This document shows positions 17,980 through 25,803 of a stretch of 64,000 nucleotides of DNA, piece by piece. This DNA comes from an uncultured Modestobacter sp. (GTDB lineage Bacteria; Actinomycetota; Actinomycetes; Mycobacteriales; Geodermatophilaceae): assembly GCF_947486615.1 (NCBI RefSeq), contig NZ_CANKUD010000004.1:62001-126000 (forward strand). Reading direction: 5' to 3'. The translations under genes and the position numbers were made by a program. How positions within the stretch are numbered: the stretch's first letter is position 1; each line of letters starts with the position of its first letter. The notes beneath the pieces are model-generated. The model saw only the letters and a list, made by a program, of their open reading frames with translations, had not been told where the DNA came from and searched no databases.

Positions 17980-18903
17980 TCAGGCGGACTGGACGGCCGC
18001 GGCCCGCTCCGGGCGGATCCAGCTGTGCCGCGAGCGCGGCCGTGGTTGCGGCACGGGAGTGGTGGCTGGCAGTGCTGCGCTGCGACCGGCCGACTGGCCG
18101 GAGGTCACCCGGTCGACGTACGCCCGCTGCTGGTTGCGTGCCCGCACCCCGCCGGCCGCGGGCACGGTGGTGCCCTCCCAGATCTCGCTCATCGCCGCGT
18201 GCAGCAGGGTCAGCGCCCGGGCGCGCATCTGGGACACCCGGGAGAGGGTGACGCCCAGGGAGTCGGCGATGTCGGTCAGCGACTCGTCGCCGAAGAAGTT
18301 CCGCTCCACGACCTCGTCCAGCCGGTCGGGCAGGGCGCGGATCGCCTCGTGCAGGTGCCGGGCCCGCTCGCCGCGGAGCAGGGCGCGCTCCGGGGAGTCG
18401 CCGGTGTCGGGCAGGTCCAGCGACCCGCCCTCGGTGCCGGTCTCGGCATCGATGCTGACCATCACGGCCCGGTGCACGTCCAGGTGCAGCGAGTCCAGCT
18501 CGGCGCGCGCGACGCCGAGGCTGGCAGCCAGCTCTTCCTTGGTCGGCGGCCGGCCGAGGCTGATGGTGAGCGCGTCGGCCGCGGCGTCCGTGCGCCGGGC
18601 GGCTGCCCGTACCGAGCGGCTGGCCCAGTCGCCGGAGCGCAACTCGTCCAGGACGGCGCCCTGCAGGCGGGGCAGGGCATAGGTGGCGAACGTGGCGCCG
18701 GCGGTCGGGTCGAAGCGGCGGGCCACCTCGACCAGCGCGACGCTGGCGCAGGAGAGCAGGTCATCCCGGCTGACGTGGCCGGGCAGGGAGATCCGGGAGG
18801 CCACCGCGTTCACCGCGAACTGGGCCAGCGGGAGATGGGTGGTCACCAGCGCGTCGACGTCGGGCTGTCGGCGCTCACTCACGACGGGGCGGGCTGCGGT
18901 CAC
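17980..18903 (-). CDS. fliA: Flagellar sigma factor, FliA/SigD/WhiG type (sigma-28)
   Basis: Directs RNA polymerase to motility promoters. Region 2 (about 10-95) contains HLPLAQFAVNAVASRISLPG, the -10-recognition stretch FDPTAGATFATYALPRLQGA and DELRSGDW; region 3 holds RPPTKEELAASLGV; region 4 holds LPDRLDEVVERNFFGDESLT and the helix-turn-helix SLGVTLSRVSQMRARALTLL. An Arg/Pro-rich tail of about 60 residues follows. I chose the GTG at 18903 (307 aa; AGAGAGG just upstream) because the ATG at 18945 falls inside a sigma-28-like -10 box. The site suggests self-activation. No anti-sigma FlgM gene is seen nearby. Confidence 0.92.
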   Translation of the reverse strand: MTAARPVVSERRQPDVDALVTTHLPLAQFAVNAVASRISLPGHVSRDDLLSCASVALVEVARRFDPTAGATFATYALPRLQGAVLDELRSGDWASRSVRAAARRTDAAADALTISLGRPPTKEELAASLGVARAELDSLHLDVHRAVMVSIDAETGTEGGSLDLPDTGDSPERALLRGERARHLHEAIRALPDRLDEVVERNFFGDESLTDIADSLGVTLSRVSQMRARALTLLHAAMSEIWEGTTVPAAGGVRARNQQRAYVDRVTSGQSAGRSAALPATTPVPQPRPRSRHSWIRPERAAAVQSA

Positions 18904-21084: not shown

Positions 21085-21990
21085 ATGCGGATCACCCAGC
21101 GCGCCCTCGCGGTCACCAGTCTGCAGGGCCTCAACCGCAACATGGACGCCATCGCCAAGCTGCAGACGCAGCTGACGTCGGGCAAGACCATCAACAAGCC
21201 CTCGGACGATCCGACGGGCACGAACGCGGCGATGCAGACGCGCCAGGAGCTCGCGGGTGCCACGCAGTACGCCCGGAACATCAGCGACGGCATCGGCATG
21301 CTGGACGCCACCGACTCCGCCTTGCAGAACATGATCACGCAGGTGCAGAACGTGCGCGCCCTGACGGTCAGGGGCCTCAACGACGGGGTCAACTCCGAGG
21401 CGGCCCGGGTGGCGATCGCCACCGAGGTGTCCGGCATCAGGGCGAGCCTGCTCGGGCTGGCCAACACCTCGGTGCAGGGCACGCCGATCTTCGGTGGCGT
21501 CACCAGCGGAGCGATCGCCTACGACGCCGGTACGGGCACCTATGTCGGCTTCGGCGGTGCCGGTGGTGTACCGGTGGTGCCGGTCAACCGGCAGGTCTCC
21601 GATGCCGACGCGGTGCGGGTCGACATCACCGGGCCGGAGGCCTTCGGCGACCCGGCGGCCGGCGACCTGTTCGCCATCGTCCAGGCCATCGTCACCGACG
21701 TGGTCAGCGATCCGGGAGCCTTGGCGGGGCATCTGGATGACCTCGACGTCGCGCTCGACCGGCTGCTCGCCGTCGCCGCCGACATCGGCACGCGCACCAG
21801 CCGGATCGAGACCGCCCAGCAGGTGAACTCGGATCTGCAGCTCTCACTGACCACCCGGTCGGCGCAGATCGAGAACGTCGACCTGCCGAAGACCATCATG
21901 AACTTGCAGATGCAGCAGGTCGGCTACGAGGCGGCGCTGGGCGCCACCGCGAAGGCGCTGCAGCCCACCCTGCTGGACTTCCTGCGCTGA
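21085..21990 (+). CDS. flgL: Flagellar hook-associated protein 3, FlgL
   Basis: FlgL is the second junction protein, flagellin-like at both ends. The 301-aa protein starts MRITQRALAVTSLQGLNRNM, has LTSGKTINKPSDDPTGTNA, and ends NLQMQQVGYEAALGATAKAL. It follows flgK by 4 nt and is normal in length. Confidence 0.96.
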   Translation: MRITQRALAVTSLQGLNRNMDAIAKLQTQLTSGKTINKPSDDPTGTNAAMQTRQELAGATQYARNISDGIGMLDATDSALQNMITQVQNVRALTVRGLNDGVNSEAARVAIATEVSGIRASLLGLANTSVQGTPIFGGVTSGAIAYDAGTGTYVGFGGAGGVPVVPVNRQVSDADAVRVDITGPEAFGDPAAGDLFAIVQAIVTDVVSDPGALAGHLDDLDVALDRLLAVAADIGTRTSRIETAQQVNSDLQLSLTTRSAQIENVDLPKTIMNLQMQQVGYEAALGATAKALQPTLLDFLR

Positions 21991-21996
21991 TGAACA

Positions 21997-22094
21997 GGCA
22001 GGACGCCCGGTTCCGGGCGGCACCTGCCGAGAAGTAGGAGCAGGGACGCGCCCGCCCGGGTGGGCGCGCCCCGGCCCCGCCCTCCGGCGGGGCG
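21997..22094. other. Three successive hairpins between flgL and csrA
   Basis: Stem-loops at 21997-22028 (GGCAGG/CCTGCC outer, CGCCCGG/CCGGGCG inner), 22047-22068 (CGCGCCC/GGGCGCG) and 22072-22093 (GCCCCGCC/GGCGGGGC). They may end or attenuate the flgL transcript or mask the csrA start; GCCGAGAA at 22026 resembles a sigma-28 -10 but has no -35 partner. Confidence 0.5.
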
Positions 22095-22134
22095 ATGCCA
22101 CGGACGGCCCACACGAACCCATGGAGGGGTACCC

Positions 22135-22386
22135 ATGCTCACTCTCACCCGCAGCGTCGGCGAGAGCATCCGGATCGGCGAGGACATCGAGGTCTACGTC
22201 GTCGAGGTGCGTGGCGGCACCGTGCGGCTGGGCTTCAAGGCCCCCCGCGAGGTGACCATCCACCGCGAAGAGGTCTACAAGCAGATCGCCGAGGCGCGCA
22301 GCCTCGCGGCCGAGGTCGCGGCGGATGCCGTTGGTGCTTTGGCAGCATTCGCGCCAGCGTCGGAGGCCTCACCTAGCAACAAGTGA
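22135..22386 (+). CDS. csrA: Carbon storage regulator CsrA
   Basis: CsrA is a dimeric RNA-binding repressor that blocks ribosome access at GGA motifs; in Gram-positive bacteria it represses flagellin until FliW sequesters it. The 83-aa protein has the whole fold, MLTLTRSVGESIRIGEDIEV then RLGFKAPREVTIHREEVY, plus an extra Ala-rich tail of about 20 residues. GGAGGGG lies 5 nt before the ATG. fliW, usually adjacent, is absent here. Confidence 0.97.
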   Translation: MLTLTRSVGESIRIGEDIEVYVVEVRGGTVRLGFKAPREVTIHREEVYKQIAEARSLAAEVAADAVGALAAFAPASEASPSNK

Positions 22387-22445
22387 CAGCAAGGTGGACG
22401 ATTCGGGCAAATAGGCGCCGATCCCGTCCGCCACAGTAGTCACAG

Positions 22446-22464
22446 GACGGCGAGTCTCGCCGTC
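22446..22464. terminator. Hairpin after csrA
   Basis: GACGGCGA (22446-22453), loop GTC, TCGCCGTC (22457-22464), about 60 nt after the csrA stop and 62 nt before the next gene. A plausible end of the flgNKL-csrA transcript. Confidence 0.5.
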
Positions 22465-22525
22465 GGCCCGATCGATCGTGCGCAAGTCTCTCCCCACAGC
22501 AACACGGTTACAGGGGGAGACGAAC

Positions 22526-23095
22526 ATGGAACTCAGCGCACTCGCATCGGGGCCGGCGGCGACCGTCGACCTGACCGACGACCTCCAGCTCCTCGAGGCC
22601 GCCGACGTCACCGTCGACACGCTCGACCAGGTCTCCGCCGAGCAGGCCTGGAGCGAGACGGTCGTCGTCCACGTGCAGCTGCGGCCGCGTCGCCCCGCCA
22701 CCCGCCGCTGCCTGGCCGCGCTCTCCGCTCTCGCCGCCCGGCACCCCGAGGTGCCCTTCGCCCTGACCGGCCTCGGTGGCGACGACCGCGTCGTCCGGGT
22801 CACCGTGGGCGTCGAGCTCGGCCCGCGTGAGCTGATCGCCAAGTTCTCCGACGAGGCGCAGGCCGCCTACGCCTTCGTCGACGGGCTCTTCACCGACCTG
22901 TACGACTTCATGCCGGTCTACGTCGGCGAGCCCGGCGAGGCCGAGCGCGCCGCCGCCGCCGGCGTGCTGCGGGCCGCCGACGCGCCGCGTCCCCGCACCC
23001 CCGCGCCGCGCTCGCCGATGCCGCGCATCCCCAGCCCGCGCGCGCCGATGGACACCGCGGCCGCGACCCGGCGCGCGGTCCCCGTCCCCGCCTGA
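22526..23095 (+). CDS. Unrecognised 189-aa protein, first gene of the module downstream of csrA
   Basis: I do not recognise a family. The protein has an acidic N-terminal part (DLTDDLQLLEAADVTVDTLD), a hydrophobic alpha/beta core (about 40-140; AALSALAARHPEVPFALTG, VVRVTVGVELGPRELIAKF, AYAFVDGLFTDLYDFMPVY) and a Pro/Arg/Ala-rich tail with repeated PR-S/A-P-M elements (about 160-189). No signal peptide or membrane helix. GGGGGAGACGAAC precedes the ATG. Codon use looks like that of its flagellar neighbours. Confidence 0.75.
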   Translation: MELSALASGPAATVDLTDDLQLLEAADVTVDTLDQVSAEQAWSETVVVHVQLRPRRPATRRCLAALSALAARHPEVPFALTGLGGDDRVVRVTVGVELGPRELIAKFSDEAQAAYAFVDGLFTDLYDFMPVYVGEPGEAERAAAAGVLRAADAPRPRTPAPRSPMPRIPSPRAPMDTAAATRRAVPVPA

Positions 23096-23189
23096 CGACG
23101 GACCCTGCCCCCTTCCAGACCGGGGGCCGCGGTCACGCACCACGCCAGCCATCCCGCCCGCCCGCCTGCACTTCCCCTCAGGAGGACCG

Positions 23190-24320
23190 GTGTCCGAGAA
23201 CATCCTCGCCGCCCCGCCCATCGTCCCCACGACGTCCCAGCCGGCCGAGGCCGCCGACGAGCGCGCCCGCACCCGCGAGCCCCTGGTCTTCGGTGGGCTC
23301 AGCGAGGCCGAGGGCTGGGCGCTCGCCCCGATCACCCCCCGCGACCGGGTGCACTTCCGCACCGACCGCGAGCTGCCGCTGGCCGACTTCCGCGCCGCGC
23401 TGCCCGCCTCGGTCACCGTGACCTACGACGAGGGCGACGGCCTCTACCGGGTGGACGGCGAGACCGGCACCGCCGAGGCCCTCGCCGGCCTGATCCGCGC
23501 CTGGTGCGCCGAGCAGGGCTACGCCACCGTCGGGCTGCGGCCGGAGAACGGCGTCCGCCGCCGGGCGCCCCGCGACCTGCCCCCGGCCTTCCTCGACGGC
23601 CTGTGCCGGCACTACTGCCGGGTCAGCCTCAAGCGCCTGCAGCGGAACATGAGCACCATCCGGCTGCACCTGCCCGACAACGACGACATCGACCAGCAGG
23701 TCGCCGAGTGGGTGCTCAAGGCGGTCAGCCAGTACGACGAGACCAAGTCGGTGCCCTTCGGTGCCTTCCTGGCCACCCAGCTGTCCAAGTGGGTGCACGA
23801 CCTGGGCCGCAACGCCTACGGCCGCACCGCCGCCGACACCGAGAACAAGCAGCAGAAGGCCGTGGCCGCCTTCACCGCCGAGCACCAGCGCCGGCCGAGT
23901 GAGAAGGAGCTCGCGGAGTACATGGGCCAGAGCGTGGCCACCCTCCGCCGCAACTCCCAGACCGTCGCCACGCTGAACGGCCTGCGCAACCTCCAGTCCC
24001 TGGACGGCGGCACGGACACCGTGGAGTTCGTCGTCCCCGACAGCGCCGAGGTGCCCGACGAGATCATGGGCGAGGCGGAGCAGACCCTGCTCTCGCACGC
24101 GCTCACCGCCGCCTGCGCGCCCGACCCGACCGCCCGGCGCGACCAGCGGGCCGCCCAGCCGAACGTGCTGGGCTGGGCCACCTGGTACCTCACCACCTGG
24201 GGCGGGCAGACGAAGACGCAGCTGTCGGCCGACCTCGGCACGTCGGTGCGCAACATGAACGTGCACGCCGACCGCGCCGAGCAGGCGCTCAAGGCCCGCC
24301 TCGACGACCTGGCCGGCTGA
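23190..24320 (+). CDS. Divergent sigma-70-family-like protein with novel N-terminal half
   Basis: The 376-aa protein is unlike ordinary sigma factors in its first 130 residues, which I do not recognise. From about 135 it matches sigma architecture: LCRHYCRVSLKRLQRN, then IDQQVAEWVLKAVSQYDETK and SVPFGAFLATQLSKWVHDLG (163-207) align with the FDP..GVPF..YA...IRGAI.D.LR stretch of region 2. HQRRPSEKELAEYMGQSV (232-249) matches region 3, and WGGQTKTQLSADLGTSVRNM plus the following helix (337-372) resemble the region 4 helix-turn-helix. A strong AGGAGG precedes the GTG. It may be a true sigma factor, an inactive relative, or an anti-sigma decoy. Confidence 0.8.
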   Translation: MSENILAAPPIVPTTSQPAEAADERARTREPLVFGGLSEAEGWALAPITPRDRVHFRTDRELPLADFRAALPASVTVTYDEGDGLYRVDGETGTAEALAGLIRAWCAEQGYATVGLRPENGVRRRAPRDLPPAFLDGLCRHYCRVSLKRLQRNMSTIRLHLPDNDDIDQQVAEWVLKAVSQYDETKSVPFGAFLATQLSKWVHDLGRNAYGRTAADTENKQQKAVAAFTAEHQRRPSEKELAEYMGQSVATLRRNSQTVATLNGLRNLQSLDGGTDTVEFVVPDSAEVPDEIMGEAEQTLLSHALTAACAPDPTARRDQRAAQPNVLGWATWYLTTWGGQTKTQLSADLGTSVRNMNVHADRAEQALKARLDDLAG

Positions 24321-24384
24321 GCCGCCGACCCGACCGCCCGACGGGACGACGACGTGCCTCCGAGCTGCGAAATCAGGTTGTGAC

Positions 24385-24567
24385 ATGGGTCCATCACGGC
24401 CTCAACCTGCCGATATCCAGTTCGTGACCGCGCCGGAGCCCACTCGCCGCCCGGCCGGGGGCGTCCCTCTCCCGGCCGGGGGCAGCGCCCTCCCGGCCGG
24501 GGGCAGCGGCCGTTCGGTGGCGCTGCTGCCCGTCGCGGGCACCCGCCGTCCGGTGGTGGCCGCATGA
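24385..24567 (+). CDS. Small Pro/Gly/Arg-rich protein with internal 7-residue repeats
   Basis: A 60-aa frame without a known domain. A 21-bp unit repeats three times (24450-24512, each beginning CCCGGCCGGGGGC), encoding PAGG-containing heptads. The ribosome site is weak. Its stop overlaps the next start as ATGA, which supports real translation and coupling to the following gene. It could instead be a leader peptide or a non-coding spacer. Confidence 0.5.
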   Translation: MGPSRPQPADIQFVTAPEPTRRPAGGVPLPAGGSALPAGGSGRSVALLPVAGTRRPVVAA

Positions 24568-24911
24568 GCGTGCCCCCGGCGGAGGACCCGGCCACGGCCG
24601 TGCTCGTCCCGCACTGGCTGAGCAGCCCCGACCGGCTCGAGGTCGAGCGGGCGGTCCGCACCGCACTGGACTCCGGCCCGGTGCACCCGGTCGCCGCGAT
24701 CCACCTGAGCGACGTGCTCACCGAGCTGCACGTGGCCGCCGCCCGCGAGGTGGTCTGGCCGGCGCCGGTGTCCCGCGTCCGGCAGGCGACCGGCTGGGGC
24801 GAGGACGTCGTCCCCGTCCGGCTGTCCGCGGTCGAGCTGGCCAGCGTCCTGTCCCTGCCCGGGCTGGCCACCGTCGCCCGGGACGCACTGACCGGAGGAC
24901 GCAGCACGTGA
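24564..24911 (+). CDS. Unrecognised 115-aa protein of the same module
   Basis: No family recognised. Mostly helical with a central AIHLSDVLTELHVAAAREVV and a C-terminal LSAVELASVLSLPGLATVAR. It overlaps both neighbours by 4 nt (ATGA upstream, GTGA downstream), so the three genes 24385-25669 form one translationally coupled unit. No membrane segment or signal peptide. Confidence 0.75.
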   Translation: MSVPPAEDPATAVLVPHWLSSPDRLEVERAVRTALDSGPVHPVAAIHLSDVLTELHVAAAREVVWPAPVSRVRQATGWGEDVVPVRLSAVELASVLSLPGLATVARDALTGGRST

Positions 24912-25669
24912 CCGAGGCCCTCTTCGGCCCCCCGTCCGGTTTCCTCCAGCGGCTCAACCGCGCCGAGGTGCGGGTTCCCGACCTCCGCGAGGCCGCCGCG
25001 CGGCTGGCGGAGGACCAGGTCGCCCCCGGGCTGGAGCTCGCCGTGCAGGGCGGCACCGGTCGCGGGCCGATGCTGGTGCTCGAGGAGGCCGGCCGGCGCA
25101 CCCGGGTGCTGCTGGCCGAGCTGGCCGTGGAGATGACCCGGGCCCACGTGCCGGCGACCCCCGACGGGGTGGCCACGGCGCTCGCCGCCTGGCTGGCTCG
25201 CCGCCCGGTGCCCGACGGCATCGCCGCGACCCAGGGCATCGCGGTGGTGGACTGGACCGACAGCACCCAGAGGACGCTCGGGTGGCGGGTCGTCATCGCC
25301 CGGGACGCACTCGTCGTGCCCTGGCGTCCCTCGGGCAGCGCCACGCTGCCGCTGGTGCACCAGACCCGCTCGGCCGCCCTCGGCCGGTCCGCGGCCCTGC
25401 CCGGACAGCTGCAGGTGCGCGGCCCGGTGGCGCTGTGGACCTCCACCGAGCCGGCCGGCGTCGACACCGCCGTGCTCGCCCGCCCGGAGCAGCTGCTGGC
25501 CGAGATGGCCGGGGCCGGCCTGCGGCTGCGGGACGCGCACGTCGTCGTCACCCCGCGCCGGCCGGTCGCCTGTGCGGAGGCCGGGGTGGCCCGGCGGCTG
25601 GCGGCCGAGACGACCGACGCGTGGCTCAGCCTGCCCTGGCGGCAGCTGGCCGACCTGGGCTGGGCCTGA
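24908..25669 (+). CDS. Unrecognised 253-aa protein, last gene of the module
   Basis: No family recognised. The GTG start overlaps the preceding stop (GTGA). The protein begins with LFGPPSGFLQRLNRAEVRVP, has a helical region rich in Ala/Leu (AELAVEMTRAHVPATPDGVA), then a beta-rich part (GIAVVDWTDSTQRTLGWRVV, DALVVPWRPSG) and ends LSLPWRQLADLGWA. No signal peptide or membrane helix; likely cytoplasmic. Its job is presumably linked to the sigma-like gene two places upstream. Confidence 0.75.
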   Translation: MTEALFGPPSGFLQRLNRAEVRVPDLREAAARLAEDQVAPGLELAVQGGTGRGPMLVLEEAGRRTRVLLAELAVEMTRAHVPATPDGVATALAAWLARRPVPDGIAATQGIAVVDWTDSTQRTLGWRVVIARDALVVPWRPSGSATLPLVHQTRSAALGRSAALPGQLQVRGPVALWTSTEPAGVDTAVLARPEQLLAEMAGAGLRLRDAHVVVTPRRPVACAEAGVARRLAAETTDAWLSLPWRQLADLGWA

Positions 25670-25698: not shown

Positions 25699-25803
25699 CC
25701 TCAGGTCGGTGCACCTCAGGCCAGTGCACCTCAGGCCAGTGCACCTCAGGCCAGTGCACCTCAGGCCAGTGCACCTCAGGCCAGTGCACCTCAGGCCAAC
25801 GCG
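25699..25803. repeat. 15-bp tandem repeat carrying the stop codon of the adjacent gene
   Basis: Seven 15-bp units of CCTCAGGCCAGTGCA: five identical (25714-25788), with variant first (25699-25713) and last (25789-25803) units. On the minus strand each unit reads GCC TGA GGT GCA CTG in frame with the carboxypeptidase gene, whose stop at 25791-25793 is the first TGA of the series. The array lies between convergent genes. Confidence 0.9.

Follow-up and report, generated by a model that had tools for sequence, protein, structure and literature searches.

A divergent sigma-70-family protein and its partner gene beside flagellar genes in Geodermatophilaceae and among type IV pilus genes in a second family

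We analysed a 64,000-nucleotide stretch of contig NZ_CANKUD010000004.1 from an uncultured Modestobacter sp. (hereafter the window), in which two adjacent plus-strand genes, A (22526..23095; 189 residues) and B (23190..24320; 376 residues), lie 3' of flgK-flgL-csrA. B is a divergent sigma-70-family protein with an extra N-terminal domain, and A stands directly 5' of it both beside flagellar genes in Geodermatophilaceae and among type IV pilus genes in a second family. The reading we favour, at a probability of roughly 0.55, takes B for an alternative sigma factor that carries its own regulatory domain, and A for the partner dedicated to it. Pairing a sigma factor with a dedicated partner is a main bacterial way to couple organelle assembly to gene expression; if our reading is true, a separate sigma lineage would test how one regulatory pair serves two machines, and Geodermatophilaceae would have an added layer of motility control. 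Among the open-licence PubMed Central (PMC) papers that our searches listed, we recognised no description of the A–B pair and found no established function for the orthologues, a possibility raised in the preliminary description of this DNA.

The relationship of B to sigma factors lies in its second half. The NCBIfam model FliA_WhiG (TIGR02479) matched residues 154-295 (E 1.2e-6; 28.5 bits, with a curated cut-off of 189.6 bits); missing this cut-off is a weak criterion, since the FliA encoded in the window, at 151 bits, misses it too. At the profile level, hhalign aligned the B family with full-length FliA/WhiG over B residues 132-374 (97.7 %, E 2.4e-12), and a search of the B profile against PDB sequences returned 6pfv (3.2e-6) and 6pfj (6.7e-6) at the top, both RsiG-WhiG complexes by title, followed by the sigma factor 1l0o (2.6e-4) and by FliA entries 6pmi (0.031) and 1rp3 (0.097), these matches covering profile positions 159-364. 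Residues 131-273 (23580..24008, plus strand) are equivalent to sigma regions 2 and 3, and residues 310-376 (24117..24317, plus strand), 3' of a low-confidence linker, to region 4; B therefore has the homologous regions 2, 3 and 4 in the order that defines the sigma-70 superfamily. Extracytoplasmic function (ECF) sigma factors are defined by the lack of region 3, which B possesses, as seen both in a Sigma70_r3 match at residues 219-253 (E 0.0075, under the gathering score) and in the hhalign alignment.

The AlphaFold2 model of B, searched with Foldseek, gave 14 matches at E ≤ 0.001, of which 12 are titled as sigma factors (sigma-28/FlgM, RsiG-WhiG, sigma-S and sigB structures); the two remaining matches are crosslinking models named RPSD-RPOB and RPSB-RPOC, in which we take RPSD and RPSB to be sigma D and sigma B. 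The model is best at residues 31-130 (blocks with a predicted local distance difference test score, pLDDT, of 81-96), falls below 50 at residues 261-310, and reaches 63-78 in the region 4 part. Residues ~31-127 (23280..23570, plus strand) were modelled as strand-helix-strand-strand-helix-strand, an alpha/beta domain of ~95 residues that is common to the homologues from pilus loci; Pfam yielded no known family for it, and comparison with A gave no detectable similarity. This domain probably regulates B. The preliminary description had read the second half of the 376-residue protein as sigma-like, had noted about 130 N-terminal residues of no recognisable family, and had looked to structure prediction for a sigma fold; the profile and structure results bear out all three points.

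A 25-row tree with long branches and no known root joined the B proteins of both families in a single clade (100/100). The 11 sigma-28 rows lay outside it, as did five further sigma proteins that fell into two groups; B thus does not group inside the FliA/WhiG clade. Together, the hhalign, PDB profile, Foldseek and tree results indicate that B is a sigma-70-family member that lies, by the tests applied, outside FliA/WhiG. Judged by its sequence, B is a lineage of its own whose nearest relatives are the FliA/WhiG (sigma-28) group.

We examined conservation in a search of named genomes, which gave 88 B relatives, the best 80 of which were kept as loci, in the main from Modestobacter, Blastococcus, Geodermatophilus, Klenkia and Goekera. 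B was full length in 31 of the 35 Geodermatophilaceae genomes searched; overall, 33/59 genomes gave a match, the two from other families being G046, with ordinary sigma-28 matches, and G040, with a partial match. The latter, on the minus strand of another family of the order (G040:C48:22607-22894; E 4.7e-4, 33 % identity), is confined to B residues 24-120, in the N-terminal domain, and leaves out the sigma part. Identity to the window's copy of B was 72-92 % among 27 aligned orthologues; for the Klenkia loci, among the matches listed, it was 73-78 % for B and 40-47 % for FlgK and FlgL. Across the 80 loci, B occurred in 80, A in 78 (both loci without A begin at a contig end), csrA, D and E in 77 each, and flgL in 75, and the gene order, whose conservation the preliminary description had put forward for checking, is kept across Geodermatophilaceae 3' of flgK-flgL-csrA.

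That description had treated five consecutive plus-strand open reading frames (189, 376, 60, 115 and 253 residues) as one module, the last three joined by overlaps. The frames lie where it placed them, and the overlaps are seen as ATGA at 24564-24567 (60-residue frame/D) and GTGA at 24908-24911 (D/E); its statement that four of the five lack a family also held up, with nothing significant in Pfam or NCBIfam (the best match, that of gene E, is at chance level, 0.21). The module itself did not survive. We rejected the 60-residue frame (24385..24567, plus strand) as a gene, as it was conserved in 3/80 orthologous loci (tblastn, E ≤ 1e-3) and was not picked by a scan of guanine-cytosine (GC) content by codon position. 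D (24564..24911, plus strand; 115 residues) and E (24908..25669, plus strand; 253 residues) are conserved proteins of no known function that form a unit separate from A–B, because 20 of 77 loci have a gap of over 600 bases between B and D, one of them (L073) with D-E inverted. Two of the three loci missing D end shortly past B, and the third, L041, has ~5.6 kb beyond B. Outside these loci, D and E had one match each in 345 genomes of the class (E 7e-4 and 9e-4), neither convincing. The conserved core is A and B. In 14 of the 20 wide-gap loci (e.g. L048, L052, L063 and L084), the same opposite-strand gene, beta-propeller-like by eye, is recognised between B and D.

Within Geodermatophilaceae, A–B tracks flagella. 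FlgK, tested in 19 genomes of the family, scored over its cut-off in 14 of the 15 genomes with B; the fifteenth, G016 (72 % complete), has weak, partial FlgK matches. No FlgK match was obtained in any of the four genomes without B (G019, G027, G029 and G031, which are 70, 79, 95 and 94 % complete, respectively). The accessible part of one study reports flagellar genes in its Geodermatophilaceae genomes and no motility seen in its strains (PMC9686282).

The second context emerged from surveys by profile search. Among 345 genomes of the class (B threshold E ≤ 1e-12), B was found in six and A in six genomes of one other family, f49, together eight genomes (2.0-3.3 Mb), besides the window's own genome, and among 296 genomes of the phylum no B besides the own copy appeared at E ≤ 1e-10; misses are possible in both surveys, since they used subsamples and scored only the first few candidates. 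A and B stand side by side in 8/8 fetched f49 loci. The f49 B aligned with B over nearly its whole length, N-terminal domain included (hhalign 99.9 %, E 2.6e-32), and the f49 A aligned with A (97.6 %, E 3.6e-12), whose conserved core spans about residues 43-150. Around the pair in locus L137 lie genes for three T2SSE ATPases (PilB/PilT-type), T2SSF (PilC), a pilin with an N-methylation motif, a prepilin peptidase, PilM and PilO; the other long f49 loci hold, among the matches listed, homologues in the same order as L137, and L135 is a short contig. FlgK and CsrA had no match in the eight f49 genomes. The pair is thus not flagella-specific, because it also occurs among type IV pilus genes in genomes with no FlgK match; of the switch for flagellar or developmental control proposed in the preliminary description, the link to flagella stands within Geodermatophilaceae.

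A FliA/WhiG sigma factor scored above the cut-off in two of the eight f49 genomes. The best FliA/WhiG match in the other six was at ~95-120 bits (at most 119.6), and the non-FliA sigma factors of the window's own genome score 119.9, 114.3 and 112.2 bits against the same model; the 119.6-bit protein, from G326, groups with non-FliA proteins in the 25-row tree. No clear FliA/WhiG besides B was therefore found in these six genomes, whose matches are at the level of ordinary sigma factors. One of the above-cut-off sigma factors (L132:3657-5057, G310) is encoded ~4 kb from B, near type IV pilus genes. The second gene 3' of B in L137 (12525-13607) encodes a 360-residue protein that may also regulate the pilus locus, with weak, below-cut-off MarR/IclR-type helix-turn-helix matches at about residues 232-277. 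We rejected homology of E or D to the f49 genes 3' of B (hhalign <1 %; E against two, D against two), as well as a phage origin of A–B, for which there was no phage match and no relative in viral contigs. A plasmid origin was likewise set aside; the two plasmid matches, annotated sigma factors, cover 57 and 35 % of B.

The pilus loci bear directly on two other explanations. The first, that csrA, A and B form one CsrA-centred switch in which A replaces FliW as the CsrA antagonist, draws on the position of A directly 3' of csrA in the family and on the distribution of FliW: the three tested genomes of the window's own genus (G000, G001 and G008) keep csrA and have no FliW match (the site in the window is 21990-22135), G025 and G030 have no FliW match either, and CsrA is kept in 4/4 tested of these five genomes (G030 was outside the test), leaving it without its usual antagonist in G000, G001, G008 and G025 among those tested. 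FliW is present in five other Geodermatophilaceae and three other-family genomes, directly adjoining csrA in the six where both were located. Since A–B occurs in 8/8 f49 genomes lacking a CsrA match, and the FliW-bearing G023, G024, G026, G028 and G032 keep B too, we regard such a switch as very improbable. The second explanation places the action of A and B at the motility machine or in its assembly, by way of a repurposed DNA-binding fold, rather than in transcription. Organelle genes do lie alongside in both families, and neither A nor the N-terminal domain of B matches a known regulator; the complete sigma-like 2-3-4 layout of B argues the other way, and this explanation appears improbable to us.

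We then inspected the DNA 5' of A and of the pilin genes. A promoter-like block, GACACRGGCAA-N4-TGCCGAAG, precedes A in 49 of 78 loci, which do not include any from Modestobacter or Klenkia; away from A, the loci contain a single poor copy. The palindrome around CACGGCGAGTGTTGTG has 41 copies, all near A. Modestobacter, including the window, has instead a different palindrome, GACGGCGAGTCTCGCCGTC (22446-22464), without the block, within a conserved non-coding region 5' of A (22426..22525, plus strand). In a genome search the block was found at A in 7/7 genomes (0-3 mismatches), which suggests a site that controls the A–B operon itself rather than a regulon motif. By eye, a FliA-type promoter candidate, CGGCTYRA-N16-GCCG, lies 5' of flgN and fliC, and a similar site lies before A in some Modestobacter and is degenerate in the window. 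An inverted repeat at 22489-22520 (CCCC / AGGGGG) brackets the ribosome-binding site of A and occurs in 64 of 79 sequences. We do not claim an RNA element here: the consensus fold 5' of A had three pairs and no compensatory change, and neither the window nor any of seven f49 loci had an Rfam match at the gathering score (one leader only at E 4.8-4.9).

On the pilus side, GTCCGAAA is found 5' of pilA in 6/7 f49 loci, with nine exact copies in 246,790 bases, and resembles the sigma-28 -10 element GCCGATAA given in the accessible part of PMC8325347. In L131-L133 and L136-L138 it is followed by an inverted repeat that varies in sequence between loci, is self-complementary by eye in most, and has no Rfam match; L134 carries only a sequence similar to GTCCGAAA. 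The two elements are a possible promoter plus leader. B may read one or another of these upstream sites; its role would lie in gene expression, with no target promoter established.

Several observations weigh against B being a working sigma factor dedicated to motility. Flagella in general do not depend on B: three flagellated genomes from three other families (G035, G043 and G046) have FlgK and CsrA and no B. Geodermatophilaceae also already carry FliA in the same cluster. The block before A had three other sites in seven genomes versus ten for a reversed control pattern, fewer than the control, and hence no regulon was found. As for the structure evidence, AlphaFold2 gave a modest model of B (mean pLDDT 68.4, predicted template-modelling (TM) score 0.45), and in Foldseek the 14 best matches superpose poorly as rigid bodies (TM by query 0.14-0.23, root-mean-square deviation 17-26), these values reflecting a domain arrangement that the model does not reproduce. 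As the preliminary description had remarked, the usual region 2.4 wording is lacking: B reads VHDLGRNAYGRTAAD where the FliA/WhiG set used here reads LDELRSxDWxxRSVR, and its region 4 helix departs from FliA/WhiG as well. B may therefore recognise promoters differently or not at all; within region 2.4, the positions of D, R, the aromatic residue and the second R look comparable by eye.

The altered region 2.4 and region 4, the FliA gene in the same cluster and the long separate branch of B are also what favours the chief alternative, in which B is sigma-derived and no longer initiates alone, acting as a decoy or appropriator on RNA polymerase or FliA-dependent promoters and thereby tuning the flagellar sigma factor. 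Such a protein would have no clear FliA/WhiG target in six of the eight f49 genomes (no match >120 bits), and few parts of B are as well conserved as its region 2 and 3 stretch; we consider this alternative unlikely, if the most serious of those weighed.

Under the preferred reading, in which B is a sigma factor with A as its partner, A and B would be co-transcribed and produced when the late flagellar genes are expressed. A state of the organelle or cell would be sensed by A or by the N-terminal domain of B, and upon this signal B would bind core RNA polymerase, recognise its promoters and redirect transcription to motility-linked genes, possibly including its own operon. A would be the regulator, most likely by holding B inactive or by escorting it.

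Compared with FliA/WhiG (TIGR02479), B is alike in its regions 2-3-4, in giving its best sequence match and some of its best structure matches there, and, with A, in being linked to flagella or to type IV pili and in having a gene partner; it differs in its score (28.5 bits), its own clade, its extra N-terminal domain and its altered region 2.4. The promoters of that group are of the TAAA / GCCGATAA type, whereas the pilA-upstream sites provide only an indirect counterpart for B. The anti-sigma partners of that group are of the FlgM or RsiG type; the A family profile had no PDB sequence match at E ≤ 10. SigB/SigF/SigG proteins share sigma region 2-3 similarity with B (TIGR02980, E 4.8e-4), a weaker match than that to FliA/WhiG, and the protein of the own genome at C1:550k, presumably of the SigB-like group, is separate from B in the 25-row tree. 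That a single type of sigma factor can serve spores, flagella and type IV pili has a precedent in WhiG and its relatives: the accessible part of PMC8325347 describes, for Actinoplanes, WhiG-like sigma factors of flagella as well as of type IV pili, and proposes that in Rubrobacter type IV pili are controlled by an RsiG-WhiG c-di-GMP (cyclic di-GMP) switch. Possible, though rather doubtful, is the wider idea that A–B represents an uncharacterised class of sigma system, with an N-terminal sensory or regulatory domain and a dedicated partner, that moved between or was kept by the flagellum and the type IV pilus and replaced FliA/WhiG in the majority of the pilus-bearing genomes sampled.

The flagellar cluster of the window, with names taken from domain matches, comprises fliL, motB, motA, flbD, flgE, flgD, fliK, a transglycosylase/NlpC protein gene, fliI (an ATPase with a type III secretion system C-terminal domain), fliH, fliG, fliF, fliE, two rod-type genes, fliS, fliD and fliC, then fliA on the minus strand, and flgN, flgK, flgL, csrA and A-B-D-E. 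The ordinary FliA-type sigma factor gene (17980..18882, minus strand), which the preliminary description had left out, diverges from flgN-flgK-flgL-csrA, and csrA (22135..22386, plus strand) is identified by family matches in Pfam and NCBIfam. Genes for an NlpC/VanY-domain protein and then citrate synthase follow 3' of E. At 25700-25800, past E and next to where the convergent NlpC/VanY gene ends, a short tandem repeat, gtgcacctcaggcca, is present in several copies.

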